From positions 1 through 61,423 of the forward strand of contig JAFIET010000014.1 in NCBI GenBank assembly GCA_020832405.1: a stretch of DNA of 61,423 bases, written 5' to 3'. This document shows, one piece after another, positions 16,728 to 46,225 of this stretch; the stretch's first letter is position 1, and the number at the start of each line of letters is the position of its first letter. Source of the stretch: Balneolales bacterium. GTDB lineage: Bacteria > Bacteroidota > Rhodothermia > Balneolales > Cyclonatronaceae. The notes below the pieces were generated by a model, which saw only the letters and a program-made list of their open reading frames with translations, had not been told where the DNA came from and did no database searches. Both the position numbers and the translations under genes were made by a program.

Positions 16728-16853
16728 TTAGTAGGCATGGTTCAGCGGTTTTGCAACGCGACGTTATGAGCCCTGCGAGTTGACTTCCAACAGTGTTTTT
16801 TCGGCACTTTACAGGCGGTAGCGAATGAAATCTTCCTGGCGGAATTCGTTCAT
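16728..16853 (-). pseudogene. Decayed HEPN-domain gene, partner of the MNT gene
   Basis: The ATG at 16853 overlaps the MNT stop codon by four bases (ATGA), the usual coupled layout of MNT-HEPN pairs. The frame reads MNEFRQEDFIRYRL, then a TAA, then SAEKTLLEVNSQGS, another TAA, then RRVAKPLNHAY and further stops. HEPN proteins typically begin with a RYRLERAEETLEEA-like helix and later have NRLYYAC; both are recognisable here with single-codon changes (Glu to stop, Tyr to Asn, Tyr to His). The remnant stays in one frame and is broken by nonsense changes, with nothing recognisable beyond about codon 42. The HEPN reading is an inference from short similarity plus gene order. Confidence 0.55.
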
Positions 16854-17170
16854 AGCAGTATTCCTTCGCGCATAACATTTTTATAAAATGGGGTAACCTT
16901 TTGTTTTTTATGCCACTCTTTAAGGGAATACACACTCGGGCTTATTATTTCGCCGGTTTCGAATTCAAGGTCGTAGAGCGGTGCAGTAACTTTGCGTTCC
17001 ATCTCAGATGTAACAACATCCGAGCTGAGCAGGATTAAAACATCCCAGTCGGATCGGGCATAAGCATCATCTCTTGCACGCGAACCGTACAGGTAAACTT
17101 TTGCATCAGGGTCATAATCTTGAATGGCTGCCTTGATGCGTTGCGTTATATTTGAACTTGATTTTCTCAT
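16850..17170 (-). CDS. MNT-type nucleotidyltransferase domain protein (minimal nucleotidyltransferase)
   Basis: A 106-residue protein of the minimal nucleotidyltransferase family. The core motif YLYGSRARDDAYARSDWDVL (residues 27-45) carries Gly29-Ser30 and the metal-binding Asp41 and Asp43 of the GSx...DxD signature. Such proteins are usually paired with a HEPN partner; in characterised pairs the MNT protein AMPylates and neutralises a HEPN RNase toxin. Here the catalytic motif is intact, but the expected partner immediately downstream is a pseudogene. The gene may therefore be a leftover or act on a HEPN protein elsewhere. The MurF-like gene lies convergently downstream and the LolC/E gene lies behind it. 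Confidence 0.85.
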   Translation of the reverse strand: MRKSSSNITQRIKAAIQDYDPDAKVYLYGSRARDDAYARSDWDVLILLSSDVVTSEMERKVTAPLYDLEFETGEIISPSVYSLKEWHKKQKVTPFYKNVMREGILL

Positions 17171-18792: not shown

Positions 18793-20994
18793 TTGGAAAG
18801 CAAGTTCACCAACACAGACGAGGCCAACGCCTTAATTTACGGGAATCACGGTAACCCTTTTGCATTTTTGGGATTTCAGGAAGCCGTACAGGGTAAAACG
18901 AAAGGCTTGCTGGTAAGGGTTTTTAAACCGGGCACTGAATCAGTTGTGCTGATTGAGCGCGAAAAAAATAAGCGGCACGAAATGGAGAAAATTGCGGACG
19001 AAGGTTTATATGAACTTTTTTTTCCGCGCCGCAAAAATCAGTTTGCTTATAAGCTGGAGCTAAGCCGGCCAGGTGGTACTACCGAAATAGTTGAGGATGC
19101 ATACCGTTTTGGTTCGCTCATTAGTGATTTTGATCTTCAGCTTTGGGGTGAAGGTAATCACATCCGTTCGTATGAAGTGCTGGGCGCGCATGCGAAGGAG
19201 GTTGACGGGGTGCGCGGGGTTCACTTTGTGGTTTGTGCCCCTTCAGCAAGCCGGGTGAGCGTTGTGGGCCCGTTTAACAACTGGGACGGCCGCCTGTACC
19301 CGATGCGCAAGCTTTTTGATCAGGGCCTGTGGGAGCTTTTTGTGCCCGGTATGGAACCCGGCGAGGTGTATAAGTATGAGATTAAAGCGCCAAATGCGCC
19401 TCTGCCTTTTTTGAAAGCTGATCCTTATGCTTTTGCTGCGGAGAAACGCCCCAAAACGGCTTCTATCGTTGCGGATGTTTCGGGGTTTAAGTGGGATGAT
19501 GACGAATGGATATCGAAGCGCGATCAGCGTTTTGAAAAGCCGATGTCGATATACGAACTTCATTTGGGTTCATGGAAGCGGCATATTGCCGATAACAGTT
19601 TTTATACCTACAGGGAACTCGCGGACACGCTGATCCCCTACATTAAGGATTTGGGCTACACGCATCTGGAGCTGCTGCCGATAGCGGAGCATCCGTACGA
19701 TCCGTCATGGGGCTATCAGGTTACGGGCTATTATGCGCCCACAAGCCGTTTCGGCAGCCCGGAAGACTTTGCCTACTTTGTGAATGAGTGTCATAAGAAC
19801 GACATTGGCGTGATTCTTGACTGGGTGCCCGCGCACTTCACCAAAGATGATCACGGGCTGCGGCAGTTCGACGGTACCGCCCTGTATGAGCACGAAGATC
19901 CGCGGCAGGGCGAGCACAAAGACTGGGGCACCAAGATTTTTAATTTTGGACGCAGCGAGGTCAAAAATTTCCTCATTTCCAATGCTGTTTTCTGGATCGA
20001 CAAATATCATATCGACGGGCTTCGGGTTGATGCGGTTGCTTCGATGCTGTATCTGGATTATTCGCGTGAACAGGGGCAGTGGGTGCCAAATAAATACGGC
20101 GGCCGTGAAAACCTGGAGGCAATCGACCTGCTGAAGCGCTTTAATGAGGTCGTACATGAGGAGTTCCCGGGGGTGGTAACGCTGGCCGAGGAATCGACTT
20201 CATGGCCGCTGGTATCAAGGCCAACTTACGTAGGCGGGCTCGGTTTTGATTACAAGTGGAACATGGGATGGATGAACGACACCCTCAAATATTTCCAAAC
20301 CGACCCGATTTACCGCAAGTATCATCACAATCAGCTTACGTTTTCCTTTATCTACGCCTTTACAGAGAATTTTGTGCTGCCGTTCAGCCATGATGAAGTG
20401 GTACACATGAAGCGCTCCATGCTCGACAAAATGCCGGGCGATGTATGGCAGAAGTTTGCAAACCTGCGGGCCCTGTACAGTTATATGTACGGGCACCCCG
20501 GCAAAAAACTGCTCTTTATGGGCAGTGAGTTTGGGCAGTGGAGTGAATGGAATGAGGCTAAAGAACTGAACTGGTCGCTTACCGGTATGGACAAGCACAG
20601 CGGTTTACTCAAAATGACGGCCGACCTGAACAAACTCTACCAGAACGAGCGCGCCCTGCACGAGGTAGATTTCGACTGGGCGGGTTTTGAATGGATTGAT
20701 TTCTCAGATGTAGATAACAGTATTCTGGCCTTTACGCGCTACTCCAAAGCGAAGGATGAATTCGTAGTTTGTGTGTATAATTTCACGCCGGTTTTCCACC
20801 GAAGCTACGTATTTGGGGTACCCGGGGCCGGGGTGTATAAAACAATCTTTAACTCTGATTCAGAATACTACGGCGGAAGTAACAAAGGCCTGGATACCGT
20901 GCAGTCTGTGGAAGGCGAATGGCACGGTAAACCTCATCATATACAGATTGAGGTACCGCCTTTGGCTGGTGTAATGATGAAGCTCGTTAAATAA
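18793..20994 (+). CDS. glgB: 1,4-alpha-glucan branching enzyme GlgB
   Basis: Makes the alpha-1,6 branches of glycogen. The 733 residues show two N-terminal CBM48-like regions ([15 protein letters not shown] near residue 13, [23 protein letters not shown] near 150) and a GH13 barrel from about 255. Catalytic residues are visible: Asp413 in [11 protein letters not shown], Glu466 in LAEESTSWP and Asp534 in [22 protein letters not shown] and MGSEFGQW are further GlgB signatures. The length is standard for the two-domain N-terminal type. The start is a TTG at 18793; no in-frame ATG lies before the first conserved residues. A terminator follows at 21011, but malQ comes next, so glycogen genes are grouped here. 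No glgC or glgP is in the window. Confidence 0.97.
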
Positions 20995-21010
20995 ATAAAC
21001 TACGTGAATA

Positions 21011-21049
21011 ATGCCTTGCTGTGCCGAAAATGCGCAGCAGGGCATTTTT
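21011..21049 (+). terminator. Intrinsic terminator between glgB and malQ
   Basis: Stem ATGCCTTGCTG pairing with CAGCAGGGCAT, with an inner GC/GC pair around CGAAAAT, followed by TTTTTG. It lies 17 nt after the glgB stop, so malQ probably has its own promoter in the following 190 bp or relies on read-through. Confidence 0.8.
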
Positions 21050-21240
21050 GTAAAACACCTTAATGCTTTGGCTTCGGAAATGTGTCTGACCGTGCGGAAC
21101 CCTGAATCAGCAGCAAATAACAGTTTGCAGCTCCCGTATTGCAGGCCCAAAAGCACCGAAACCGGGCAGGAAAGGAATCACGCAACGATTTTACCAATTA
21201 CCATTTCAACTATTCCTTTAAGTTTAACTACCAGAAAGCT

Positions 21241-22791
21241 ATGAAGTTTAATCGCGCAAGCGGCGTGTTGGTACACCCAACCTCTTTCCCATCCAACTAC
21301 GGGTTGGGAGACCTCGGCTATGCAGCAAAAATGTTTCTCGATTTCCTGATTGAAACCAGGCAATCGATCTGGCAAATCCTGCCATTGGGCCCTACCGGAT
21401 ACGGAAACTCCCCGTATGCAAGTTATTCGGCCTTTGCCGGAAACCCGTACCTGATTAGCCCGGATATTCTTGTATCAAAAGGTCTGCTCACGCAGGCGGA
21501 AGCTCATCAGGCGTACCTGCCTCAGAGCACCAAAGCCGACTACGACCGAGCCATGCCGCTTAAGGATGCTTTATTTGCGAAAGCATTTGCACGCTTCGAA
21601 GAGGCAAACGGTAAAGACGGTGGCAGTGAAATGCGCACCTTTGCCCGTAAAAACAGTTACTGGCTAAAAGATTATTGCCTGTTCATGGCCTGCCTTGAGC
21701 ATCACAGCTTCCGGCCCTGGAATACATGGGAGGAAGGTGTTGCCCTTCGCAAGCCTGCATCCCTCAAATCGTGGGAGAAAAAACTGGCTGACCGCGTACG
21801 CTATTACCGCTGGCTTCAGTTTGAGTTCTACAATCAATGGCTTGCTGTGCGCAAATATGCCAACGACAACCAAATTCTTGTAGTGGGAGATATTCCCATT
21901 TTTGTGGATCACAACAGTGCAGATGTTTGGGCACAGCCTCATTTTTTTGAAGTTGATGAAAAAGGCAACCGTCAGCTTGTTGCCGGTGTACCGCCTGATT
22001 ATTTCAGTGCTACGGGGCAGCTTTGGGGCAACCCGCTGTACAAATGGAAAGAGCTCAGGAAAGACGGTTATACCTGGTGGCTGAAGCGCTTCGAGCAGAT
22101 GATGATCCTAACCGATGCCATCCGTGTGGATCACTTCCGCGGCTTCGACGCCTACTGGGAAGTGAAAGCCGATGCGCCAAACGCTATTGAAGGCCGATGG
22201 GTGAAGGGGCCCGGCAAAGATCTGTTTAATACGGTTTACAGCCATTTCGGAGAGCTGCCGATTATTGCGGAAGATTTGGGAATGATCACTAAAGAAGTAG
22301 TTGAGCTGCGGGATCATTACAACCTGCCTGGCATGAAAATTCTTCAGTTTGGCTGGAATGACAACTCCGGAAACGGCTTTTTGCCGCACAATTATACGAC
22401 AAGTAACTGTGTGGTGTACACCGGCACGCACGACAACGACACCAGCCGGGGCTGGTATATGCAGGCATCAGCGCTTGAGCAGCATCGCCTTCGCGAATAT
22501 GTGCGCTCCGGTTGTGAACAGCCAGAGCGTGAACTGATACGGCTTGCGATGTTATCGAACGCCGATATGGCAATCTTCCCGATACAAGACCTGATGGGGC
22601 TGGGCACGGAGCACCGAATGAATTTCCCGGGAACCGCAACAGGCAATTGGGAATGGCGCTTTACAGCTGAAATGCTGTATGGTATAGACAAGGGTTTCCT
22701 GCTGCACCTGGTTAGTATTACGAACCGTGATCCCCGTTTAGGACTCACCGATGCCAACCTGATAGAGCTGAAAACCGAGGAGGCAAATTGA
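21241..22791 (+). CDS. malQ: 4-alpha-glucanotransferase (amylomaltase) MalQ
   Basis: A GH77 enzyme that transfers alpha-1,4-glucan segments between maltooligosaccharides. It has 516 residues, normal for bacterial MalQ. Signatures are HPTSFPSNYGLGDLG near residue 12, QILPLGPTGYGNSPY with SAFAGNP, DIPIFVDHNSADVWA, the nucleophile region IRVDHFRG, the acid/base region IIAEDLG and YTGTHDNDT. I start at ATG 21241 because the family begins with RASGVL close to the N-terminus; the frame extends up to 21139 but that part has no family similarity and contains the likely promoter region. It works with GlgB in glycogen or maltodextrin turnover. Confidence 0.96.
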   Translation: MKFNRASGVLVHPTSFPSNYGLGDLGYAAKMFLDFLIETRQSIWQILPLGPTGYGNSPYASYSAFAGNPYLISPDILVSKGLLTQAEAHQAYLPQSTKADYDRAMPLKDALFAKAFARFEEANGKDGGSEMRTFARKNSYWLKDYCLFMACLEHHSFRPWNTWEEGVALRKPASLKSWEKKLADRVRYYRWLQFEFYNQWLAVRKYANDNQILVVGDIPIFVDHNSADVWAQPHFFEVDEKGNRQLVAGVPPDYFSATGQLWGNPLYKWKELRKDGYTWWLKRFEQMMILTDAIRVDHFRGFDAYWEVKADAPNAIEGRWVKGPGKDLFNTVYSHFGELPIIAEDLGMITKEVVELRDHYNLPGMKILQFGWNDNSGNGFLPHNYTTSNCVVYTGTHDNDTSRGWYMQASALEQHRLREYVRSGCEQPERELIRLAMLSNADMAIFPIQDLMGLGTEHRMNFPGTATGNWEWRFTAEMLYGIDKGFLLHLVSITNRDPRLGLTDANLIELKTEEAN

Positions 22792-22834
22792 CCTTTAACG
22801 CAAAAGGCAATTTCGTTATATTATAAGCTTATTA

Positions 22835-22877
22835 AGAATCTGCCATTTCCCGCGGGTTATGGCAGATTCTTTTTTTA
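22835..22877 (+). terminator. Intrinsic terminator of malQ
   Basis: A 12-bp perfect stem AGAATCTGCCAT/ATGGCAGATTCT around a 12-nt loop, followed by seven T, starting 44 nt after the malQ stop. Confidence 0.93.
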
Positions 22878-23188
22878 CAACCCGCAGAAAACATCCTGCT
22901 TTTGTTTTCCTGCACCTAATGGTTGTTTGAATGTGACTAAATGAAACCAAGCCCTTCTTATTTTGTTTGCAGGAAATTTACCGGGTAGCAGTCTGATCCG
23001 ATCTGCTGATCATTCGCAAGCAGCAAGCCTGCCTTCTGTTGCGGAACAACGCTCGGAATTCTGTACAGACCAGGTACTCAGGAAAGAGCGGCAGTTATCT
23101 TACTGCTGTTTGGTCTCAAACAGGTTATTGAAACCTGTTTCGTTTTTAAAAACTACATCCTGTAACTAAGCAACACTATTCCCGCACT
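22878..23188. other. Non-coding gap upstream of the GT5 operon
   Basis: About 310 bp with no gene or RNA that I recognise. A short frame at 22963-23169 lacks protein character. An inverted pair, AACAGG and CCTGTT, near 23115-23135 (CAAACAGGTTATTGAAACCTGTTTCG) could be a hairpin or operator shortly before the GT5 start. Confidence 0.4.
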
Positions 23189-23989
23189 ATGAAGATACTT
23201 TACGCTGCCGCAGAAATTTCACCTTTCGCACGGCTGACAAACAACGCAGACATGCTGCGCTTCCTGCCCGCATCCCTGCAGGATAAAGGCTTTGAAATCC
23301 GTATCCTGCTGCCCAAGTACGGATCTATTCACGACAGAAGAAACCGGCTGCATGAGGTGATCCGACTTGCCGGCATCGAGGTCGAAGTAGATGGCAACGT
23401 TGAAAGTATGCGGATTAAGGTTGCGAGTATCCCCAACGCAAAGCTTCAGGTGTACTTCCTTGATAACGATACGTTTTTCAAGCGTAAAGGCATGTTTAAA
23501 GATCCCAAAACGGAAGCGTATTACCCCGATAACCTGCAGCGCCTCATCTTCTACAATAAGGGAGTTTTGGAAACCGTTAAAAAGCTCGGCTGGCAGCCCG
23601 ATATCATTCACTGCCATGATTGGGCAGCCGGTTTCATCCCTGTATATATGAAGACTGTTTACGCCAATGAAGCCATTTTCAAGGATACAAAAGTGATATA
23701 CAACCTTCACAGCCCGGCGAATGAAGGTGTTTTTGATCTTGAAAACCTTCCTGTAATGCGCCTGCCCGAAGATATCGATCAGACTAAAATATCGGCTGAG
23801 GGGAAAATAGATTTTCTCCGGGCCGGCCTGAATTTTTCTGACCATGTGGTAACAGGAAATGACATTCGTTCTGAACTCGACGGGCTCTTTACTGAACTTG
23901 GCATAGAAAGCACTAAAATACAGGGTGCCCCGCAGGATGTTTCATCAAAATTCGCTGACTTCTATCGTACCATCAAACCGGAGAACTAA
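23189..23989 (+). CDS. GT5-type glycogen/starch synthase catalytic-domain protein, N-terminal domain only
   Basis: A 266-residue protein similar to the N-terminal (GT5) half of glycogen synthases: MKILYAAAEISPFA at the start, EVIRLAGIEV, VYFLDNDTFFKRKGMF, YYPDNLQRLIFYNKGVLE and DIIHCHDWAAGFIP. It lacks the C-terminal Rossmann domain of the GT-B fold, so it is about half the length of GlgA. The ADP-glucose-binding KxGGL motif expected near residue 15 is replaced by RLTNNADML. Bacteroidota have a conserved short family of this kind, usually named glycogen synthase although the missing parts argue against that activity. The next gene, a DUF4270 lipoprotein, starts 7 nt after the stop, which links it to an envelope operon rather than to glgB/malQ. 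Confidence 0.85.
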   Translation: MKILYAAAEISPFARLTNNADMLRFLPASLQDKGFEIRILLPKYGSIHDRRNRLHEVIRLAGIEVEVDGNVESMRIKVASIPNAKLQVYFLDNDTFFKRKGMFKDPKTEAYYPDNLQRLIFYNKGVLETVKKLGWQPDIIHCHDWAAGFIPVYMKTVYANEAIFKDTKVIYNLHSPANEGVFDLENLPVMRLPEDIDQTKISAEGKIDFLRAGLNFSDHVVTGNDIRSELDGLFTELGIESTKIQGAPQDVSSKFADFYRTIKPEN

Positions 23990-23996
23990 ACCCTGT

Positions 23997-25385
23997 ATGC
24001 AAAAAGGGACTGAACCAACCCAACCCCGCCAATTTCATTTTTATCAGCAGAAAACAACAGGGCTGTTTGCAATAGCACTGTTAATGCTCGCTGGTTTATA
24101 TGCCTGCAGCAACGACAACAATATAGCCGGTGCTTCATTTGTACAGAGCGGTCAGAATATTGCAATTGATACGCTCGAAGTAACTGATTTCGAACTGGTT
24201 GATCTGCTTACTTACACCGGTAATCTTAGCGTGTTTTCGGCCGGTCGTTTTACCGATCCGGTTTTGGGCACCATTGAAAGCACTGCATTTCTGGCCCCCG
24301 GCATTAACTCGGTAAGTTCTTCCGATTCCGTGCATGCAGGTGCCGAAGTTTATCTGGTGCTGCATCCGTTTTCTTTCTACGGAGATACGACGCAGACAGC
24401 AACTTTTAATCTTCATTTCATTGAACAGCGCTGGCGCCCGGTAGCCATACGCAAGGATTCTGAAATTGCGTTTAACCCCGCTCCCTTCGGGCAGGTGCAG
24501 TTTGCAGCCGGAACAGATTCCGTTTTATTCCAAATGCCGCAGCAGTGGGCTGATGAGTACCGGGATTTTTTCAACGAAGAAGACAGTCCGCTTGAAAATG
24601 TGCGCGAAAACCTTTTTGGCTTTGCCCTTGTACCTGCTGCTGAAACAAACGCAATCGTTAGTTTCCAAACCGAAGCAATCATCACAGATTCCCTCGGAAA
24701 CCGAAATTATACGGGTACGCGCCTGCTTGTTGTGAACCCCGAAGTTCATGATGATGATGATAATGGCGGGGAAGACAGCAGCAACCGTTTCTTCCCTTCA
24801 GATAACGGAGATGATAACGGTAACGGCGACATTGGTAACGGAGGCTTTACAGACCCCTTCCCAAACCGGCAGTCTTTTTCAGCACCGTTCAGAGGCAATG
24901 GTTTTAATACGCTCCGATCCGACATCCCGGGCGAAAGTCCGGATGTGATCTCTGTATTTAACACCTTTGAACAGGTGTTACGTCTAAACCTCAACCTGGA
25001 CAGCCGCGATTTTTCTTCTCAGGCTGTAAGCCGGGCTGAACTGCTGCTTTTTGAAGATCTCGGCCCGGCATCGGTACTTCCGGAAGGGCAGGTACGCAGC
25101 AGCAGCGGCCGCCTTCAGTTTTATGTGCTCAACGAAACCGAACGCAATTTTGAAGTGATCAAACTCCCCCTGTTCGAACCACCGGTACGCGAATCTGATT
25201 TATCCTATCGGGTGAATGTTACTGAATTTATCCAGACCTATCAGCTTGGCCGCCGTTCCGAAACTGAATTTTTTATAACATCAGGGCCCAATAACGGTCA
25301 GTTTACCCCTGCTTTCCTTGCTGCCCCTGGATCAGGTGAAAGAGCCCCGAAACTCATCATTACACGCATTAATCCGGAGAAATAA
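23997..25385 (+). CDS. DUF4270 family lipoprotein
   Basis: A 462-residue exported lipoprotein. The lipobox is LAGLYAC with Cys37 as the lipidated residue. The mature part begins with a DNNIAGASF segment and SGQNIAIDTLEV, then alternates TGRF-like and beta-rich stretches with the pattern of DUF4270, a family found in Bacteroidota that commonly follows the short GT5 gene. An acidic low-complexity stretch (DDDDNGGEDSSN, then DNGDDNGNGDIGNGG) near residues 250-285 may be a linker or bind calcium. Function is unknown. I start at ATG 23997, 7 nt after the GT5 stop; the frame extends to 23925 but would overlap that gene. The stop abuts the GTG start of the barrel gene, indicating coupling. Confidence 0.75.
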   Translation: MQKGTEPTQPRQFHFYQQKTTGLFAIALLMLAGLYACSNDNNIAGASFVQSGQNIAIDTLEVTDFELVDLLTYTGNLSVFSAGRFTDPVLGTIESTAFLAPGINSVSSSDSVHAGAEVYLVLHPFSFYGDTTQTATFNLHFIEQRWRPVAIRKDSEIAFNPAPFGQVQFAAGTDSVLFQMPQQWADEYRDFFNEEDSPLENVRENLFGFALVPAAETNAIVSFQTEAIITDSLGNRNYTGTRLLVVNPEVHDDDDNGGEDSSNRFFPSDNGDDNGNGDIGNGGFTDPFPNRQSFSAPFRGNGFNTLRSDIPGESPDVISVFNTFEQVLRLNLNLDSRDFSSQAVSRAELLLFEDLGPASVLPEGQVRSSSGRLQFYVLNETERNFEVIKLPLFEPPVRESDLSYRVNVTEFIQTYQLGRRSETEFFITSGPNNGQFTPAFLAAPGSGERAPKLIITRINPEK

Positions 25386-26696
25386 GTGAAGCAAACAGCA
25401 ATAATTGCCCTGACACTCATCATGATCGTGCTTCCTTTCACGGCAGCACAGTCACAGGAAAGTCTGGTTCGCAGTGCTTCTGTTTATTCGGTACTCGGCC
25501 TTGGTATCCCGCAGGATTATATGTCGGTACACGGTACCGGGATGTCGCTCATTGGCGTAGCGACCCCCGACAGAACAAAAGGTACTCTCGCAAACCCGGC
25601 CATGTGGGGTACAACATACCTTACCCACATGACGGTATCCGGCAACGTTACAACCTTTTCTGCAAGTGATGGGGTTACAGATGCAAGTAGTACCCTTGTA
25701 GGTTTTGACCGGTTTCAGGTTCAGATCCCGGTATTAAGAGAACGCCTTGGCGTTTCTGCGGGTCTTTACCGGACTACTGATGTGCGCTACAGTTTTGTTG
25801 ACCAAAACAGTATTGTTTTGCCAACCGCCGATTCCCTATCCGTTGTGGATTACCGAACATCCGTTACAGGAACCGGTGGAATTAACCGTCTTGAGCTTGG
25901 TTTTGGCCTTCGTTTAACCGATAATATATACGTAGGTTATGCCCCGTCTCTTAAATTTGGTGTTGTAGAAGAAGACAACCAAATTCTGTTTCAAAGCAGC
26001 CTGTACAGCCCGGTACGTTACGACGAAAGAACGCGCTACAGGGGGCTCGCACACCGGTTTGGAGCAATGGTAATCCTGCCTCGTGTTTTTTCTGCCAACG
26101 ATCAGATTGTAATAGGTGCAACGGCTACCCTTCAATCTGAGTTAGAAGCAAGGCGACGGATAAACACCCGAATCCTCACCGGTCAGGTACTCAGTGATTT
26201 AGAGCTGATTCCCGAAAATGAATTTGGTGAACAAAATGTGACCTATCCGTTTGAGACAACCGTTGGTTTATCTTATTTTCCCACACGGTTTACCCTTTTC
26301 GCAGCAGAATTGCACTATCAGCAATGGAGCGAACTAAACGCCTTTGGTTCTGATGACAAACTGGCTTTCATGAAAGATCGTCTTCGTCTTGGGTTTGGTT
26401 TTGAGTATGATGCATTCAGCCGCGGAAATGAAGGTTTGTTTAACAGCCTTATTTACCGTGCCGGGGTTTCGTATGATAACGGCCACCTTTCCATCGATGG
26501 TACTGACATAGAAACGATGCTTTTTTCTGTAGGCTTAGGTATTCCATCCCGTTCAATGGGCTCATCAATCGATTTGAGCTTTGACTTCGGGATCAGAGGT
26601 ACGGAAAACAATGGCCTTATTCGTGAAAGAATATTTGGATTACGAGCTTCGTTAAATTTCTCAGAACTTATGTTCCTGCAACGCAGGGTTAACTAA
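25386..26696 (+). CDS. Predicted outer-membrane beta-barrel protein (PorV/FadL-like superfamily)
   Basis: A 436-residue exported protein. The signal peptide is about residues 1-23 (TAIIALTLIMIVLPFTAA, then QSQ). The mature N-terminus SVLGLGIPQDYMSVHGTGMS, followed by ANPAMWG, resembles the glycine-rich plus NPA signature of PorV/FadL-like barrels, and the rest alternates polar and hydrophobic residues as beta strands. It starts with GTG directly after the preceding TAA (no gap), so it is translated with the DUF4270 lipoprotein. Together with the lipoprotein and the downstream TPR protein it looks like an outer-membrane complex. No specific substrate can be proposed. Confidence 0.68.
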   Translation: MKQTAIIALTLIMIVLPFTAAQSQESLVRSASVYSVLGLGIPQDYMSVHGTGMSLIGVATPDRTKGTLANPAMWGTTYLTHMTVSGNVTTFSASDGVTDASSTLVGFDRFQVQIPVLRERLGVSAGLYRTTDVRYSFVDQNSIVLPTADSLSVVDYRTSVTGTGGINRLELGFGLRLTDNIYVGYAPSLKFGVVEEDNQILFQSSLYSPVRYDERTRYRGLAHRFGAMVILPRVFSANDQIVIGATATLQSELEARRRINTRILTGQVLSDLELIPENEFGEQNVTYPFETTVGLSYFPTRFTLFAAELHYQQWSELNAFGSDDKLAFMKDRLRLGFGFEYDAFSRGNEGLFNSLIYRAGVSYDNGHLSIDGTDIETMLFSVGLGIPSRSMGSSIDLSFDFGIRGTENNGLIRERIFGLRASLNFSELMFLQRRVN

Positions 26697-26732
26697 CTCG
26701 ATACAACTATCAGATTCATTATCGGAAATCTT

Positions 26733-28058
26733 ATGAAAAAGCTGATCTTGCTACTGCTTGCCGGTTTGTTTGTTTATGACCCGGCCGTCGCTCAGGAAGA
26801 ACCACCTACACCTTTAAACCTGCCACCAATTGCGGTTCAGTCACTTTTCGTAGAAAGTGTGAGGAATCAGCAGTTCGATGATGCCCTAAACTACGGCCGC
26901 TGGCTCATTGACTGGCGCCCCAAGGAAATGGAAAACAACCCCAATTATCGCGGAGACCGTAACTTCCGGCGGATGATTCAGGTTTATGAAGCAATTGGCG
27001 CACAGCAGACCGATCCAAGCCTCAGAGAAGCTTACGTGGATTCTGTACTCATTATGTATGAGCGCACTTTTATTACTTTTGACGAATCTGAAATTGATTT
27101 ATTTGAGTGGAAACTAAACCGCGCCAGATTCATGCAAACCAATATGCGTTCTATTGCCAACGGGCGTGTGTTAACGATGGAAGAATATGCGCTTTTGTTT
27201 GAATTGGATATGGAACGCTTTATTCAGACAGGTGATGGCTATTTTATTAACTATCTGGTGAGTGAACTCGTTAACAACAGTTTTCGGGACAGAGCTATTC
27301 AGACTATGAAAATAGCCGAACCCATTTCACCACAATCCGTACGGGCTCATTTTAATGAGCTGCGCGGAAGCCTGTTTCGCTCGCCTGAAGAGCGCATCGG
27401 GTTTTTGCTAACACAGATGGAAGGCATGGATGATGACGAACAGCTCGCTACCATGCAGGAACTGTTTGATCTGTACGGTCAGGCAGGGAACCGTGCCAAG
27501 CAGCGTGAGATGGCCATCACATTATATGAGCTGGATCCGACTTTTGAGAATATCATGCGAATGGCACAGTATGCGGAAAGCCAGGCAAACTACCGTGATG
27601 CCATCCGGTACTTTGGTGAAGCTTTTCAGGCTACAGACGACACACAAATCAGGGCTGAAATTAACCTCAAGTTAGCGGAAAATCATTTTGCCCTTGATGA
27701 TCTGCAAACTGCCAGAACGTATGCCCAGCGTGCCATGCGTCTGCGCCCGAACTGGGGGGCACCACTCATGCGCATGGCTGATATTTACGCACAAGCCGTA
27801 AATAACTGCACCTCAGGTGGTCTCGAACGTACCGATAAAGCAGTGTACTGGCTCGTACTCGACTACCTCGAACGTGCCCGCAGGGTTGACAGCAGCGTTG
27901 CGAATATGGTGCAGCGCAGCATTGCAAGTTTTCAGGCCGTTACCCCCTCTGCTGAGGAAAAATTCTATATGAACTGGGAAAACGGCGATACGCTGCAGAT
28001 TGGGGCGAATCTCAATGCATGCTACGAATGGATTAGTGAAAGCACAACTGTTCGGTAA
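26733..28058 (+). CDS. Periplasmic TPR-repeat protein
   Basis: A 441-residue protein with a signal peptide (residues 1-20, LILLLLAGLFVYDPAVAQ). It is helical throughout; TPR-like repeats are clearest at about 285-350 (YAESQANYRDAIRYFGEAF, then ENHFALDDLQTARTYAQRA followed by RPNWGAPLMRMADIYAQA). An N-terminal helical stretch has FDDALNYGRWLI near residue 48. Such proteins usually act as scaffolds. The gene starts 36 nt after the barrel gene and ends the operon, with a terminator 25 nt later. Bacteroidota often pair PorV-like barrels and TPR proteins, but I cannot name a partner. Confidence 0.72.
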   Translation: MKKLILLLLAGLFVYDPAVAQEEPPTPLNLPPIAVQSLFVESVRNQQFDDALNYGRWLIDWRPKEMENNPNYRGDRNFRRMIQVYEAIGAQQTDPSLREAYVDSVLIMYERTFITFDESEIDLFEWKLNRARFMQTNMRSIANGRVLTMEEYALLFELDMERFIQTGDGYFINYLVSELVNNSFRDRAIQTMKIAEPISPQSVRAHFNELRGSLFRSPEERIGFLLTQMEGMDDDEQLATMQELFDLYGQAGNRAKQREMAITLYELDPTFENIMRMAQYAESQANYRDAIRYFGEAFQATDDTQIRAEINLKLAENHFALDDLQTARTYAQRAMRLRPNWGAPLMRMADIYAQAVNNCTSGGLERTDKAVYWLVLDYLERARRVDSSVANMVQRSIASFQAVTPSAEEKFYMNWENGDTLQIGANLNACYEWISESTTVR

Positions 28059-28083: not shown

Positions 28084-28145
28084 AAGGCTTTGAGAGTTCA
28101 AATGACGGCAAAAAAAGTCATTTTTTAACCTCTCAAAGCCTTTTT
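28084..28145 (+). terminator. Intrinsic terminator of the GT5-DUF4270-barrel-TPR operon
   Basis: A 13-bp stem AAGGCTTTGAGAG/CTCTCAAAGCCTT followed by a T-run. The loop contains a second small hairpin, AATGAC/GTCATT. Confidence 0.9.
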
Positions 28146-28861: not shown

Positions 28862-30109
28862 ATGGCTCAATCAAGAAAAAAGTCTAAACCAAAAAACCGA
28901 AGAAAAGGCCCTAAACAAAAAGGGCAGGGACAACAGCAGGTGAAACCAAAAAAAAATAACCCGCTGATTCCTGAATTTAATGGTCAGCAGCCTTCGCGCC
29001 CTGCGGGGGTTTACACCGGAGTATTGGAGATAAACGAAAAAGGTTATGGTTTTCTTAGAAAACTGAATCATGAATTTTCGAAAAAAGACAGCGATCCCTT
29101 TGTTCACGTGAATTTGGTACACATGCTGTACCTCAAACCCGGGCTTGTTCTTGAGTGTGAGTTAGAAGAAGACATTAAGGGTAACAGAAGGGTGAAGGAA
29201 ATTCTGACTATAAACGACCGGCCCATTCAAAAATGGACAATGGCCAAGCGTTTTGAGCTTCAGACACCTATTATGCCGGTATCGCAGATAAAACTATCCC
29301 ATAAGGCTGAAGAAACGGAAATGCGGGTTATTGACCTCATCGCCCCTATTGGCAAAGGGCAACGCGCAGTTATTGTAGCCCCTCCGCGAACCGGAAAAAC
29401 CGTGCTCCTTAAACAAATTGCAAAGGCCATCGAAACCTATCATAAGAAAATCCACCTTGCGGTTTTACTGATTGATGAGCGCCCGGAAGAAGTGACTGAT
29501 TTTATCCGGACTACAAGCGGGCAGGTGTTTGCTTCCTCTAACGACAATACAGTTGAAAGCCACACCCGTATTGCCGAACTTGCCCTCGGCTACGTGAAAC
29601 GCCGTGCTGAAATGGGCGAAGATGTTGTGCTTCTGATCGATTCTCTCACACGTATGGGCCGTGCTTATAACGCCGCTCAAACCGGCTCAGGCCGTACCAT
29701 GTCCGGCGGACTCGATATACGTGCGCTCGAAATTCCCAAGCGTATTTTCGGTTCAGCCCGTAAAATTGAAGGCGCAGGCTCCCTAACGATTATTGCAACC
29801 TGCCTGATTGAGACGAATTCCCGTATGGATGACCTCATTTTTGAGGAATTCAAAGGTACAGGCAACATGGAGCTCGTTTTAGATCGTGATATTGCAAACG
29901 ACCGTATTTTTCCTGCTATAAATATTGCAGCTTCCGGTACGAGGAATGAAGAAAAATTTATTGAGGATTCATCCATCGAAGAACGCAATGTGCTGCGCCG
30001 CTATCTGCTCCGGAAACCACCCAAAGATTCGATGCTAAGCCTGCTTCAGGTGCTCAAGCGAACAACAAGTAACCGCGACCTGCTTGAGCAGCTCGCAACG
30101 CTTACATAG
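28862..30109 (+). CDS. rho: Transcription termination factor Rho, short N-terminus
   Basis: The hexameric RNA-dependent ATPase that ends transcription. The 415 residues show a lysine-rich start (1-45) with no helical Rho-N domain, an OB-fold RNA-binding domain about 48-125 (GVLEINEKGYGFLR) and the RecA-like motor. Walker A is PPRTGKT at 174-180 (E. coli has PPKAGKT). ERPEEVTD, VLLIDSLTRMGRAYN, the Q-loop region SGGLDIRALEIPKRIFGSARK and FKGTGNMELVLDR are also present. The RNA-binding loop HEFSKKDSDPFVHVN diverges from the usual LPGPDDIYVS form. Many Bacteroidota Rho proteins are longer, so a second rho could exist elsewhere. It ends convergently with lptB, overlapping it by 8 nt, and no intrinsic terminator follows. 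Confidence 0.93.
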   Translation: MAQSRKKSKPKNRRKGPKQKGQGQQQVKPKKNNPLIPEFNGQQPSRPAGVYTGVLEINEKGYGFLRKLNHEFSKKDSDPFVHVNLVHMLYLKPGLVLECELEEDIKGNRRVKEILTINDRPIQKWTMAKRFELQTPIMPVSQIKLSHKAEETEMRVIDLIAPIGKGQRAVIVAPPRTGKTVLLKQIAKAIETYHKKIHLAVLLIDERPEEVTDFIRTTSGQVFASSNDNTVESHTRIAELALGYVKRRAEMGEDVVLLIDSLTRMGRAYNAAQTGSGRTMSGGLDIRALEIPKRIFGSARKIEGAGSLTIIATCLIETNSRMDDLIFEEFKGTGNMELVLDRDIANDRIFPAINIAASGTRNEEKFIEDSSIEERNVLRRYLLRKPPKDSMLSLLQVLKRTTSNRDLLEQLATLT

Positions 30110-30929
30110 GCGGGCGCTCGTTTTTAGGCCTGTTTTCCGTTTTAGCTTCATCATCCCTGAAAGATTCGGCACCATAGCGCTCAAGGCGAAACTGTTTGCC
30201 CAGATAAAGTCTGCGGGCTTCCTCATCTTCAGCGAGGCGGTCCGCAGTGCCTTCCATCAGTATTTTGCCTTCAAACATCAGGTATGCCCGGTCGGTTATG
30301 GCAAGAGTTTCGTGCACATTATGATCGGTGATGAAGATGCCGATGTTTTTCTGTTTAAGGGTGTACACGATTTTTTGAATATCTTCCACAGCTATGGGGT
30401 CAACGCCCGCGAAGGGTTCGTCAAGCAGGATAAATTTGGGATTAGTGATCAGTGCACGGGCAATTTCAGTACGCCGCCGCTCACCGCCTGAAAGGGAATA
30501 GCCGAAGCTTTTTTCAACGGCCTGAAGGTTGAATTCTTCAATGAGCCCGGAAGCTTTTTCGCGCCGCTCTTTTTTTGAAATGCTGGTGAATTCCAGCACG
30601 GATTCAAGATTTTCACGCACGGTGAGGTTGCGGAATACGCTCGCTTCCTGCGCGAGGTAGCCAACCCCTGCACGGGCACGCCGGTACATGGCCATGCGTG
30701 TAATCTTTGTTTTATTCAGGTAGATATTTCCGCTGTCGGGGCGTATAAGCCCCATAAACATGTAGAAAGTCGTTGTTTTTCCAGCTCCGTTCGGGCCTAA
30801 AAGCCCGACAATTTCCCCCTGATGCACATTGATGGATACCTCGTTCACGACCGCTTTTTTCTTATAGGTTTTCACCAGGCGGTCGGAGTGCAGAATTAGA
30901 TTTTCGGGTGTAGGGGGAGCTTCGCTCAT
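30102..30929 (-). CDS. lptB: LPS export ABC transporter ATP-binding protein LptB
   Basis: The cytoplasmic ATPase that powers LPS extraction by LptFG. It has 275 residues: Walker A GPNGAGKTT near residue 41, Q-loop region GVGYLAQEASVFRNLTVREN (the LAQE and FRxLTVxxN motifs typical of LptB), signature SLSGGERRRTEIARAL, Walker [14 protein letters not shown] and the H-loop ITDHNV. The C-terminal tail of about 30 charged residues (ESFRDDEAKTENRPKN) is longer than in E. coli. The product identity is secure from the LAQE stretch. It is the promoter-distal gene of a minus-strand group with the M42 peptidase 56 nt upstream, and its 3' end overlaps rho by 8 nt. Confidence 0.95.
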   Translation of the reverse strand: MSEAPPTPENLILHSDRLVKTYKKKAVVNEVSINVHQGEIVGLLGPNGAGKTTTFYMFMGLIRPDSGNIYLNKTKITRMAMYRRARAGVGYLAQEASVFRNLTVRENLESVLEFTSISKKERREKASGLIEEFNLQAVEKSFGYSLSGGERRRTEIARALITNPKFILLDEPFAGVDPIAVEDIQKIVYTLKQKNIGIFITDHNVHETLAITDRAYLMFEGKILMEGTADRLAEDEEARRLYLGKQFRLERYGAESFRDDEAKTENRPKNERPPM

Positions 30930-43075: not shown

Positions 43076-46000
43076 ATGATTAAAAAGATACTAGCGTTCG
43101 CAGTATTGAGTTTAGTCGTGTTGATCCCCGTTGTTGCTTCGGCTCAAACCGGCTCAATTACGGGTTCAATTACGGATGCTCGGACAGGGGAGGGGTTGCC
43201 TGGCGCAACTGTTTTCCTGCCTGAACTAAGTCTTGGTCAATCGACCAATCTCGACGGAGAGTACACAATTAATAACGTACCTGCAGGTACCCATAATGTT
43301 AGGGTTACTTATGTAGGCTACGTAGGCCGTACGGTTTCCGTTACCGTTACAGCAGGTGCAACTACTACCTTAAATGTAGAACTTCAGCCGGACCGGCTTG
43401 AACTTCGTGACCTGGTTGTTACCGGTTACGGTGTACAGCCACGGCGCGAGGTAACCGGTTCTATTGCTCAGGTTCGTGGCGAGCAGATTGCCAACCTTCC
43501 TGTACAAACCTTCGACAGCGCTATCCAGGGTCGTGCAGCCGGTGTTACCATTACATCAGCTTCCGGTCAGCCGGGTGGTGCCCTTCGCGTTCGTGTTCGT
43601 GGTACAGGCTCTATCACCGCCGGTAACGACCCGCTGTTTGTAGTTGATGGTGTGCCCATTACTGTAAACACCGACGGTTCCACACAGGCTTCATCTAACG
43701 CGCTTGCAGCTATCGACCCGAGCGACATCGAGTCGATCGAAATTCTTAAGGATGCAGCTGCTGCTTCTATCTACGGTGCTCAGGCTGCCAACGGGGTAGT
43801 TCTTATTACTACCCGCCGCGGTCAGGCAGGTCGTACACAGTTCCAGATTACCTCACAGGTAGGTACACGTGAAGCGGTTAACAAGTATGACATGCTTACC
43901 GGCCCTGAATGGGTACAGATGCAGATCGAAGGCCGTCGTAACGATGCGATTGTAAATGCCCGCCGTGGTATTTCCACAGCGCTCAACAATCCTGATACAC
44001 AGGAAAGTAATTTCCGTAACAGTGCCCTTGTGCGTAATGAGTTGATTAACCTCCCTGAATTCGCTACACCTGAGGAAGAAACTGCTTTCTTCAACAACCT
44101 CAGAGATCCGAATATCACTTCCCTTGAAGAGTTCCTGCGCTTTGTGCCAAACTACGATTGGCAGGATGCTATTTACCGTACAGGTAACACCCGCAGCGTA
44201 AACGTAAGTGCACGTGGCGGTACAGAGCAAACAAGATTCTTTGTATCAGGTGCTTACGAGTATCAGGAAGCGCAGATTATTCAGTCCAACTTTGAGCGTT
44301 TCAACGTTCGTACCAACCTTGACCACCGTGTAAGCGAGCTTTTCTCACTTGAGACAAGTATTGCGCTTGCTACAACCTCTCAGTTTGGTTCTATCGCTGA
44401 CGGTAACTGGATAAACGGTCCGTTTTTCGCGGCTCCGTATGCGATTCCTATTCAGCCTATCTTCAACGAAGACGGAACATTTAATGAGGCTGTTACCGGC
44501 GATTACAACATCATTCAGGGTGTTAACCTTGAGCAGCGTACCGGCCGTACCAATCAGGTAATTGGTAATCTTGCAGCCAATTTCCAGATTACACCAAACA
44601 TCGTACTTCGTTCTTTCTTTGGTCTGGATTACCGTAATGTGCGTGACACCAACGTACGTCCGCCGGAAATCCCTTCTTTTTCAGGTTTTGGCGGTCAGGT
44701 ATTTGAGGCCAGCCGCGACGTAACCAACTGGAACACCAACCACACGGTTTCTTACTTCAACACCTTTGATGATATCCACAGTGTATCGGGTGTTGCCGGT
44801 TTTGAATACCGCCAGCAGCAGCGTGAATCTTTCAGTGCTACAGGCCGTGGTTTTGGAAGTGGTCTGTTTACAACGCTGAACAGTGCCGCTGATCCGTTCG
44901 GCGTAGGCGGTTTCTTTACTGAATTCCGTATTGCCGGTTTCTTTGGTCAGGTTCGTTACGACTACGACAAGCGCTACTTCGCAACCGCAACGGTTCGTTA
45001 TGATGGTTCTTCCCGTTTCGGTGAAGACAATCAGTGGGGTCTGTTCTACTCTGGTTCTTTGGGCTGGGAGCTTACCCGCGAGCGTTTCCTTGAGAATGTT
45101 GACTGGCTCGATCAGTTTCAGCTTCGTGCCAGCTACGGTGTAACCGGTAACTCTGAAATCGCCAACTTCGCTTCCCGCTCTCTGTTTGGCAGCTCCGGAA
45201 CCTACAATGGTGTATCCGGCCTGCGTGCTACGCAGCTGGGTAACAACCTGCTTACCTGGGAAGAAGCGAGCACCGTTAACCTCGGTTTAAACTGGGCATT
45301 GTTTGAAGGCCGTATTTATGGTGCAGTTGATGTGTACCGTACCATCAACGACCGTATGCTTCTGAACGACTTCCTCTTCTCTGATTCCGGATTCGGCTCT
45401 TTCTCAAACAACATTGGTAAAGTACGCAACCAGGGTGTTGAGATTGAAGTAGGTGGTACTCTTGTAAACTGGAATGGTCTTCGCTGGACCTCTGACTTCA
45501 ACATCACTTTCCAGGATAACGAAATCCTGAATCTTGGTGCTGATTCTCCGGAGTTCCGCATTATCAACGGAGTTCGTTACGACGTAGGCCAGAGCATCTT
45601 TGCTGAGCGCCTGTTCCGCTTTGCCGGTGTAAACCCTGCCGACGGCCGTGGTATGTGGTTCGACCGTAACGGTGAAATCACCTACAGCCCAACAGAAGAA
45701 GACCTCGATTTCGTAGGAGAGGCATTCCCTGATGTAATTGGCGGATGGAACAACACCATCTCTTACGGCGGATTTACCCTTGACGTGTTCTTCCAGTTTA
45801 ACCTTGGTCAGGACAGCTTCAAGCAGCAGGAAGGTTTCTTCCTCGACGGTACCATCTTCCGTGGCCGCGGCCTTACCCGCCGTACGCTCGACAGATGGCA
45901 GCAGCCCGGTGACATCACCGATATGCCTAAAGCGTCTGCCCGTCAGTCTGAAGGCGGATCTGATGCTGACTTCTTCTTCACTGCCTCTACATGGCATCTC

Positions 46001-46225
46001 GAAGACGTTGGATACATTCGTCTGAAGTCAGCTTCTCTATCGTATCAGGTTCCCACCAATATCGTGAGCCAGATTGGCCTTTCAAACGCACGCGTATTTG
46101 TTCAGGGGCTTAACCTGATTACCTGGACCAACTACCGCGGTCTCGACCCTGAAATTTTAGTGGTTGCGAATGCACCATTCCCGCAGCCGCGTATTTACTC
46201 TGCTGGCGTTTCTCTGCAATTCTAA
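43076..46225 (+). CDS. SusC/RagA family TonB-linked outer-membrane protein
   Basis: A 1,049-residue outer-membrane transporter of the SusC type. Signal peptide 1-24 (KKILAFAVLSLVVLIPVVA, then SAQ); carboxypeptidase-regulatory-like domain about 25-105 (GSITDARTGEGLPGATVFL); plug about 110-225 with the family hallmarks PLFVVDGVPI and ILKDAAAASIYGAQAANGV; then a large barrel ending AGVSLQF. It moves a bulky nutrient across the outer membrane together with the SusD lid encoded 18 nt downstream. No glycan hydrolase, peptidase or sigma/anti-sigma pair adjoins it, so the substrate (glycan or peptide) is unknown. ATG 43076 is preferred to 43064 because of a GAGG six bases upstream. Confidence 0.96.
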   Translation: MIKKILAFAVLSLVVLIPVVASAQTGSITGSITDARTGEGLPGATVFLPELSLGQSTNLDGEYTINNVPAGTHNVRVTYVGYVGRTVSVTVTAGATTTLNVELQPDRLELRDLVVTGYGVQPRREVTGSIAQVRGEQIANLPVQTFDSAIQGRAAGVTITSASGQPGGALRVRVRGTGSITAGNDPLFVVDGVPITVNTDGSTQASSNALAAIDPSDIESIEILKDAAAASIYGAQAANGVVLITTRRGQAGRTQFQITSQVGTREAVNKYDMLTGPEWVQMQIEGRRNDAIVNARRGISTALNNPDTQESNFRNSALVRNELINLPEFATPEEETAFFNNLRDPNITSLEEFLRFVPNYDWQDAIYRTGNTRSVNVSARGGTEQTRFFVSGAYEYQEAQIIQSNFERFNVRTNLDHRVSELFSLETSIALATTSQFGSIADGNWINGPFFAAPYAIPIQPIFNEDGTFNEAVTGDYNIIQGVNLEQRTGRTNQVIGNLAANFQITPNIVLRSFFGLDYRNVRDTNVRPPEIPSFSGFGGQVFEASRDVTNWNTNHTVSYFNTFDDIHSVSGVAGFEYRQQQRESFSATGRGFGSGLFTTLNSAADPFGVGGFFTEFRIAGFFGQVRYDYDKRYFATATVRYDGSSRFGEDNQWGLFYSGSLGWELTRERFLENVDWLDQFQLRASYGVTGNSEIANFASRSLFGSSGTYNGVSGLRATQLGNNLLTWEEASTVNLGLNWALFEGRIYGAVDVYRTINDRMLLNDFLFSDSGFGSFSNNIGKVRNQGVEIEVGGTLVNWNGLRWTSDFNITFQDNEILNLGADSPEFRIINGVRYDVGQSIFAERLFRFAGVNPADGRGMWFDRNGEITYSPTEEDLDFVGEAFPDVIGGWNNTISYGGFTLDVFFQFNLGQDSFKQQEGFFLDGTIFRGRGLTRRTLDRWQQPGDITDMPKASARQSEGGSDADFFFTASTWHLEDVGYIRLKSASLSYQVPTNIVSQIGLSNARVFVQGLNLITWTNYRGLDPEILVVANAPFPQPRIYSAGVSLQF

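Follow-up and report, generated by a model that had tools for sequence, protein, structure and literature searches.

What could a truncated glycogen synthase gene be doing at the head of a set of envelope genes? The question is raised by four genes of a Balneolales bacterium of the class Rhodothermia, found on a contig stretch of 61,423 nucleotides (JAFIET010000014.1, positions 1 to 61,423; called the window below). All four lie on the forward strand: ORF1 (open reading frame 1, 23189-23989) encodes a short protein of glycosyltransferase family 5 (GT5), ORF2 (23997-25385) a lipoprotein, ORF3 (25386-26696, with a GTG start) a barrel of the outer membrane (OM), and ORF4 (26733-28058) a periplasmic tetratricopeptide repeat (TPR) protein. 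A preliminary description of this DNA had seen in them an undescribed system for envelope assembly or surface decoration. We conclude, with a probability of about 0.85, that they form the canopy operon of a beta-barrel assembly machinery (BAM) of the Bacteroidota type, accompanied by a GT5 pseudoenzyme and a TPR companion. Envelope assembly is thus the half of the proposal that stands, while no evidence for surface decoration was found. Nor is the system wholly undescribed: two papers of October 2025 described BamG and BamH in the BAM complex of Bacteroidota (PMC12611786, PMC12578637), leaving only the products of ORF1 and ORF4 with no role described there. In a text search, glycogen occurred in neither paper, "tetratricopeptide" was absent from PMC12611786 and "TPR" from PMC12578637.

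According to the 2025 work, BamG sits behind BamA, BamH lies over the lateral gate of BamA, and BamG is essential (PMC12611786, PMC12578637), its gene not being deletable in any of three species tested. ORF3, a 436-residue protein, belongs to the FadL-type, 14-strand OM protein family that includes this BamA-associated subunit. The NCBIfam model of BamG (NF053685) matches it with an E-value of 1.2e-73 and 248.5 bits, residues 30-433 corresponding to positions 5-396 of the 397 in the profile, so that the match spans the full-length family model. ORF3 also matches three solved BamG chains in the PDB (9hjm_F, 9n2d_B and 9hiv_F; E 3e-19), and in the sequence alignment of that search its predicted mature N-terminus, RSASVYSVLGLG, aligns with TASPYSFYGIG of Flavobacterium johnsoniae. 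BamG is characterised by an extended N-terminal tail that threads the wall of the FadL-type barrel. The barrel had been called PorV/FadL-like beforehand. The FadL part of that label is borne out; a PorV identity was rejected, BamG being the sole NCBIfam match and the best PDB matches being BamG chains.

ORF2 encodes a 462-residue lipoprotein, whose assignment to DUF4270 had to be secured in another way, its Pfam match lying below threshold (16.5 bits vs 27). PDB sequence searches with ORF2 and with a Rhodothermia relative gave no match, and structure prediction was therefore needed. An AlphaFold2 model (pLDDT, the predicted local distance difference test, of 84), computed without templates from an alignment that we call A4, was compared with the PDB by Foldseek. 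The top three matches, 9his_G, 9n2d_C and 9hjm_G, are all BamH, from Bacteroides thetaiotaomicron, F. johnsoniae and Porphyromonas gingivalis (E 2e-14 to 1e-13, probability 1.00, TM-scores of 0.49-0.63), the E-value of the next-best match being poorer by some nine orders of magnitude. The predicted model thus has the two-domain DUF4270 fold of BamH. A hidden Markov model of Bacteroidia BamH, built with the window's class excluded, matches ORF2 (E 1.1e-9) and no other protein in the window. Moreover, the DUF4270 protein that adjoins the short GT5 gene in Flavobacteriaceae-like loci matches the BamH chain 9n2d_C with E-values of 8.5e-59 and 5.6e-95. A PDB search with alignment A4 also reached BamH chains; it was not counted as independent, because A4 holds eight BamH rows from outside the window's class. 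The predicted lipidated cysteine, Cys37 (codon at 24105-24107, forward strand), ends the motif YAC ahead of SNDNN and is invariant among the 32 sequences of A4.

Homology and fold together make it highly probable that ORF3 is BamG and ORF2 BamH, and the mechanism can be borrowed from the published structures of their relatives. BamG would be an OM barrel docking to the back of BamA, and BamH a surface lipoprotein anchored on BamG and arching over the BamA lateral gate, beneath which large OM proteins such as SusC and SprA would be folded. Homologues of Omp85/BamA, BamD, SprA and SusC are also encoded in the genome. The likeness to the solved complexes (F. johnsoniae 9N2D; B. thetaiotaomicron 9HIS, 9HIV and 9HJ3; P. 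gingivalis 9HJM) extends from the BamG family by sequence and BamH by fold to the presence of these BamA, BamD, SprA and SusC homologues. The arrangement of the genes differs: bamH and bamG are adjacent here, whereas their locus numbers lie apart in F. johnsoniae (Fjoh_0823 and Fjoh_1412) and, by a smaller distance, in B. thetaiotaomicron (BT4306 and BT4367), and a TPR gene follows bamG in the Balneolales genome. A complete SusC/RagA-family receptor (748 bits), a likely BAM client, is encoded in the window at 43157-46222.

Could the barrel and the lipoprotein instead be a paralogous BamG2-BamH2 pair, or a surface system of the PorV or SusCD kind, and not housekeeping BAM subunits? Such BamG2-BamH2 pairs are known in Bacteroidota (PMC12578637). 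Two probable loci of this sort (L099 and L100) were met in our survey, and the genome itself encodes two other, weaker BamG-like barrels. No other barrel of the genome, however, comes close to ORF3 as a BamG match (248 bits vs 56 and 33), and the ORF2-ORF3 pair keeps its synteny throughout the class and in deep-branching genomes of the phylum, which leaves the paralogue explanation hardly credible. The SusCD and surface-glycosylation interpretations were rejected on family evidence.

The expected transcript boundaries fit a single operon. The gaps of 7, 0 and 36 nt and the closing terminator noted beforehand agree with the ORF coordinates and with a long hairpin (minimum free energy -32.8 kcal/mol) with a T-tract at 28084-28144 on the forward strand. 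Just 5' of the operon lie glgB, for a branching enzyme, and malQ, for a 4-alpha-glucanotransferase (18793-22791), suggestive neighbours for a GT5 gene. This pair has its own strong terminator after malQ, a hairpin of -23.3 kcal/mol followed by T7 (22834-22871, forward strand); the operon is therefore set apart, and glgB-malQ apparently forms a separate transcript. A scan for terminator-like sites also picked out, in the leader just 5' of the GT5 gene, a 9-bp inverted repeat with T-rich sequence behind it (23118-23140, forward strand); such sites are about as frequent in shuffled sequence. The four-gene arrangement is not due to chance, because nearly all mapped loci of the window's class share the GT5-BamH-BamG order, most with the TPR gene next.

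The product of ORF1, 266 residues long and predicted to be cytoplasmic, had been described as a sugar-nucleotide-binding half-domain. A half-domain it is: PF08323 matches residues 2-222 (E 1.1e-55, positions 1-215 of 239 in the profile), and the protein aligns to Escherichia coli GlgA over GlgA residues 1-210 only. It is homologous to the N-terminal domain of GlgA (PRK14098/NF010698; E 7.5e-69 over residues 1-225 of the window protein), from which it differs in lacking both the C-terminal domain and the KxGG loop, and its score of 232.6 bits falls below the cut-off of 754. GT-B glycogen synthases hold the donor chiefly with their C-terminal domain. In place of the KxGG loop (K15, G17 and G18 in E. 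coli) the window protein has ARLTNN. The loop is gone from all 18 short GT5 proteins drawn from across the phylum, with K15, G17 and G18 nowhere kept as a motif, and most of them also lack the counterpart of the E. coli residue His161, though some Rhodothermia members keep this histidine. The short protein is thus very probably a pseudoenzyme devoid of glycogen synthase activity.

Nor is it a decaying gene fragment: this interpretation was rejected, as dN/dS is 0.028 between congeneric species, a sign of strong purifying selection, and ORF1 encodes the best conserved of the four proteins of the operon. Compared with full-length relatives, residues 41-100 are more conserved in the short forms and the surroundings of the active site less so, as would be expected of a protein whose catalysis has given way to a new function. 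Another, intact GlgA (L218) is encoded elsewhere in the genome. The preliminary description had suggested a binder or sensor of nucleotide sugars, which might so tune envelope assembly or surface glycosylation; the retained N-domain of the GT-B fold and the histidine kept in some Rhodothermia speak for it. Since the donor-binding C-domain is absent and KxGG occurs in none of the short forms, with the histidine lost in most, nucleotide-sugar binding was rejected and the sensor idea now appears very improbable. Most likely, the protein would act in a regulatory or scaffolding manner through protein-protein contacts, rather than by catalysis or nucleotide-sugar binding; it might plausibly link carbohydrate or amino-sugar supply to envelope growth.

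Is the GT5 gene tied to BAM, or merely lodged beside it? The linkage of GT5 and DUF4270 genes, which had seemed conserved in Bacteroidota, proved not to be limited to one genome: the short gene lies ahead of bamH in most of the phylum. In a survey of the gene neighbours of the short GT5 gene at 80 named loci, among which the closest to the window's are those of Balneolaceae, Gracilimonas and Rhodohalobacter, bamH directly follows in 66; the remaining 14 comprise one at a contig end, five with glmS and no bamH, and eight of Sphingobacteriaceae. Within the window's class, every complete locus mapped reads GT5-BamH-BamG-TPR, barring two: a genome of family f4 (handles of this kind are our own), with GT5-BamH-BamG and no TPR gene, and one of family f8, where GT5 was found with no BamH or BamG alongside. 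In a genome of the same class, locus L236 (G092:C93:11500-22440) keeps the short GT5 gene with no BamH or BamG found adjoining, the best BamG match being weak (E 1.7e-21). At L127, L136, L141, L145 and L149 (Pontibacter, Dyadobacter, Hymenobacter and a Flammeovirgaceae genome), the short GT5 gene still adjoins glmS, and bamH is gone from the locus.

Such loci bear on the possibility that the short GT5 protein is a bystander with a place in carbohydrate or amino-sugar metabolism, sharing the bamH locus by inherited synteny only. The ancestral gene was a genuine glgA, glgB-malQ precedes the GT5 gene in the window, and glmS follows it in many Bacteroidia. Where bamH has left, as in the four groups just named, GT5 still adjoins panC or glmS, and it adjoins panC in Sphingobacterium. 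Conversely, a strong terminator cuts glgB-malQ off, the catalytic residues are lost, and bamH is the commonest downstream neighbour across very distant families. We regard the bystander explanation as a serious contender, at somewhat less than an even chance. In F. johnsoniae, BamH depletion constructs have been driven from the fjoh_0824 promoter, fjoh_0823 being bamH; this use fits co-transcription of bamH with the preceding gene, and, by locus numbering and promoter use, fjoh_0824 may be the short GT5 gene and the first of that operon.

The history of the locus can be read from deeper branches, where full-length glgA is followed by a gene for a GmhB-like HAD phosphatase, bamH, bamG and often the TPR gene, rpiB and glyA. 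The bamH-linked full-length GlgA proteins mostly retain the catalytic motifs KTGGL, HN and EPCGL. In most deep-branching genomes (L072-L088), glgA is separated from bamH by the gene of this phosphatase, a member of the heptose bisphosphate phosphatase family and a possible link to the core of lipopolysaccharide (LPS). In our tree, 17 of 18 short GT5 proteins form one clade (support 100/100), which is joined (94/93) by a pair of full-length genes; on its contig, one of the pair is linked to bamH. The eighteenth, L046 (G172:C9), stands outside on a poorly resolved branch, and a single clade for all short forms was rejected (approximately unbiased test, p 0.023); a second tree left out FO_L202, which was a wrong ORF. 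The L046 gene, at a locus reading GT5-HAD-bamH-bamG-rpiB, was seemingly truncated independently. Because an intact glgA occupies the same slot in deep branches, the catalytic glgA of a glgA-bamH-bamG operon appears to have been truncated and then kept. The simplest history suggested by these comparisons would have that ancestral operon, with glgA truncated once in the ancestry of Rhodothermia and Bacteroidia; a second, independent truncation for L046 is probably likelier than a single event. ORF1 would thus descend from a catalytic glycogen synthase gene already placed beside bamH-bamG, which then lost the donor-binding half and the active-site loop, and its product would now be a conserved cytosolic pseudoenzyme. 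Family f18, which has a 489-residue GlgA and no convincing BamG, may be Chlorobi, which lack BamG and BamH according to the published Nature paper on the Bacteroidota BAM. Literature searches on the GT5 neighbourhood found nothing, and an operon joining a truncated glycogen synthase gene and a TPR gene with BAM genes was not found in the literature examined.

ORF4, correctly recognised beforehand as a periplasmic TPR protein, has 441 residues, a Sec signal peptide (judged by eye), no lipobox and a conserved C-terminal motif, CYxWIxExTTVR, seen in alignments A2 and A3. Its TPR Pfam matches are weak, its AlphaFold2 model is confidently all-helical (pLDDT 91) and its PDB matches are generic TPR structures only. 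BamD is likewise a periplasmic TPR protein, and BamD and BamP may be positional analogues; ORF4, however, scores only 19.2 bits on the BamD model (TIGR03302, cut-off 81.4), and the true BamD is encoded elsewhere in the genome (G000:C51). By profile searches, the TPR gene is the immediate downstream neighbour of bamG in Rhodothermia as well as in families f12, f14, f17, f21, f24, f29 and f35. It occurs in two surroundings, bamH-bamG-TPR and, in Flavobacteriia, coaX-bamG-TPR-lptC. The second of these invites the suspicion that the protein is unrelated to BAM and merely co-transcribed, serving for example LPS transport, and the generic PDB matches, like the many BamG-bearing genomes that have no TPR gene, point the same way; yet the constant neighbour in both arrangements is bamG, immediately 5', and not lptC. 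The unrelated-protein explanation falls just short of an even chance, and we would put the odds that ORF4 is a BAM partner at a little under one in two. Judging from conserved adjacency only, it would most likely be a periplasmic partner of BamG or of BAM, for instance a chaperone or a substrate adaptor. Genomes with the BamG most like the F. johnsoniae protein (genus label g35) have no TPR gene between bamG and lptC, which may explain why the product of this gene did not turn up in the purified complex.

Several observations count against the canopy-operon assignment as a whole. The ORF3 score lies 1.5 bits under the curated NCBIfam cut-off for BamG (250), which two congeners (G119 and G100) exceed. 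The identity of ORF2 to solved BamH proteins is only about 10%, with the TM-scores given above, and after Cys37 it has a single acidic residue (SNDNNI; sister species have SDDNNI or SDDTNV), whereas surface lipoproteins of B. thetaiotaomicron are described as having at least two among the six residues that follow the lipobox cysteine. The short GT5 gene persists away from bamH in Sphingobacteriaceae and some Cytophagales, and its role may therefore not be tied to BAM. In many genomes, Flavobacterium-like ones among them, bamG has no TPR gene next to it, so that the TPR protein is not an obligatory subunit. A bolder proposal would be that in at least two lineages the glycogen synthase encoded next to the BAM canopy genes ceased to be catalytic and turned into a dedicated cytosolic pseudoenzyme coupling carbon or amino-sugar status to BamH/BamG-dependent OM assembly, the TPR protein being an unrecognised periplasmic BAM factor of lineages whose BAM has yet to be purified; we think this unlikely.

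Elsewhere in the window, an ABC transporter ATPase resembling LptB is encoded near the operon on the reverse strand (30102-30929), convergent with rho. A small protein, also on the reverse strand (16850-17170), has a nucleotidyltransferase-like motif, GSRARDDAYARSDWD, of the sort found in MNT antitoxin-type proteins.

BamG and BamH were known already; what is new is the conserved linkage of the short GT5 and TPR genes to bamH-bamG. In Rhodothermia and in deep branches, bamH and bamG are clustered, with glgA, later the pseudoenzyme, in front and the TPR gene behind, and the GT5 and TPR proteins are two concrete candidates for regulation, or for subunits, not yet accounted for in BAM. BT_4307 of B. 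thetaiotaomicron has been called a "potential glycogen synthase", possibly an enzyme of glycogen storage (PMC10797578). Its locus number adjoins that of BamH (BT_4306), and from this numbering alone it probably belongs to the short GT5 family, which, in contrast to that interpretation, appears catalytically dead. Short "glycogen synthases" beside bamH, probably including BT_4307, should therefore not be counted as glycogen-making enzymes.

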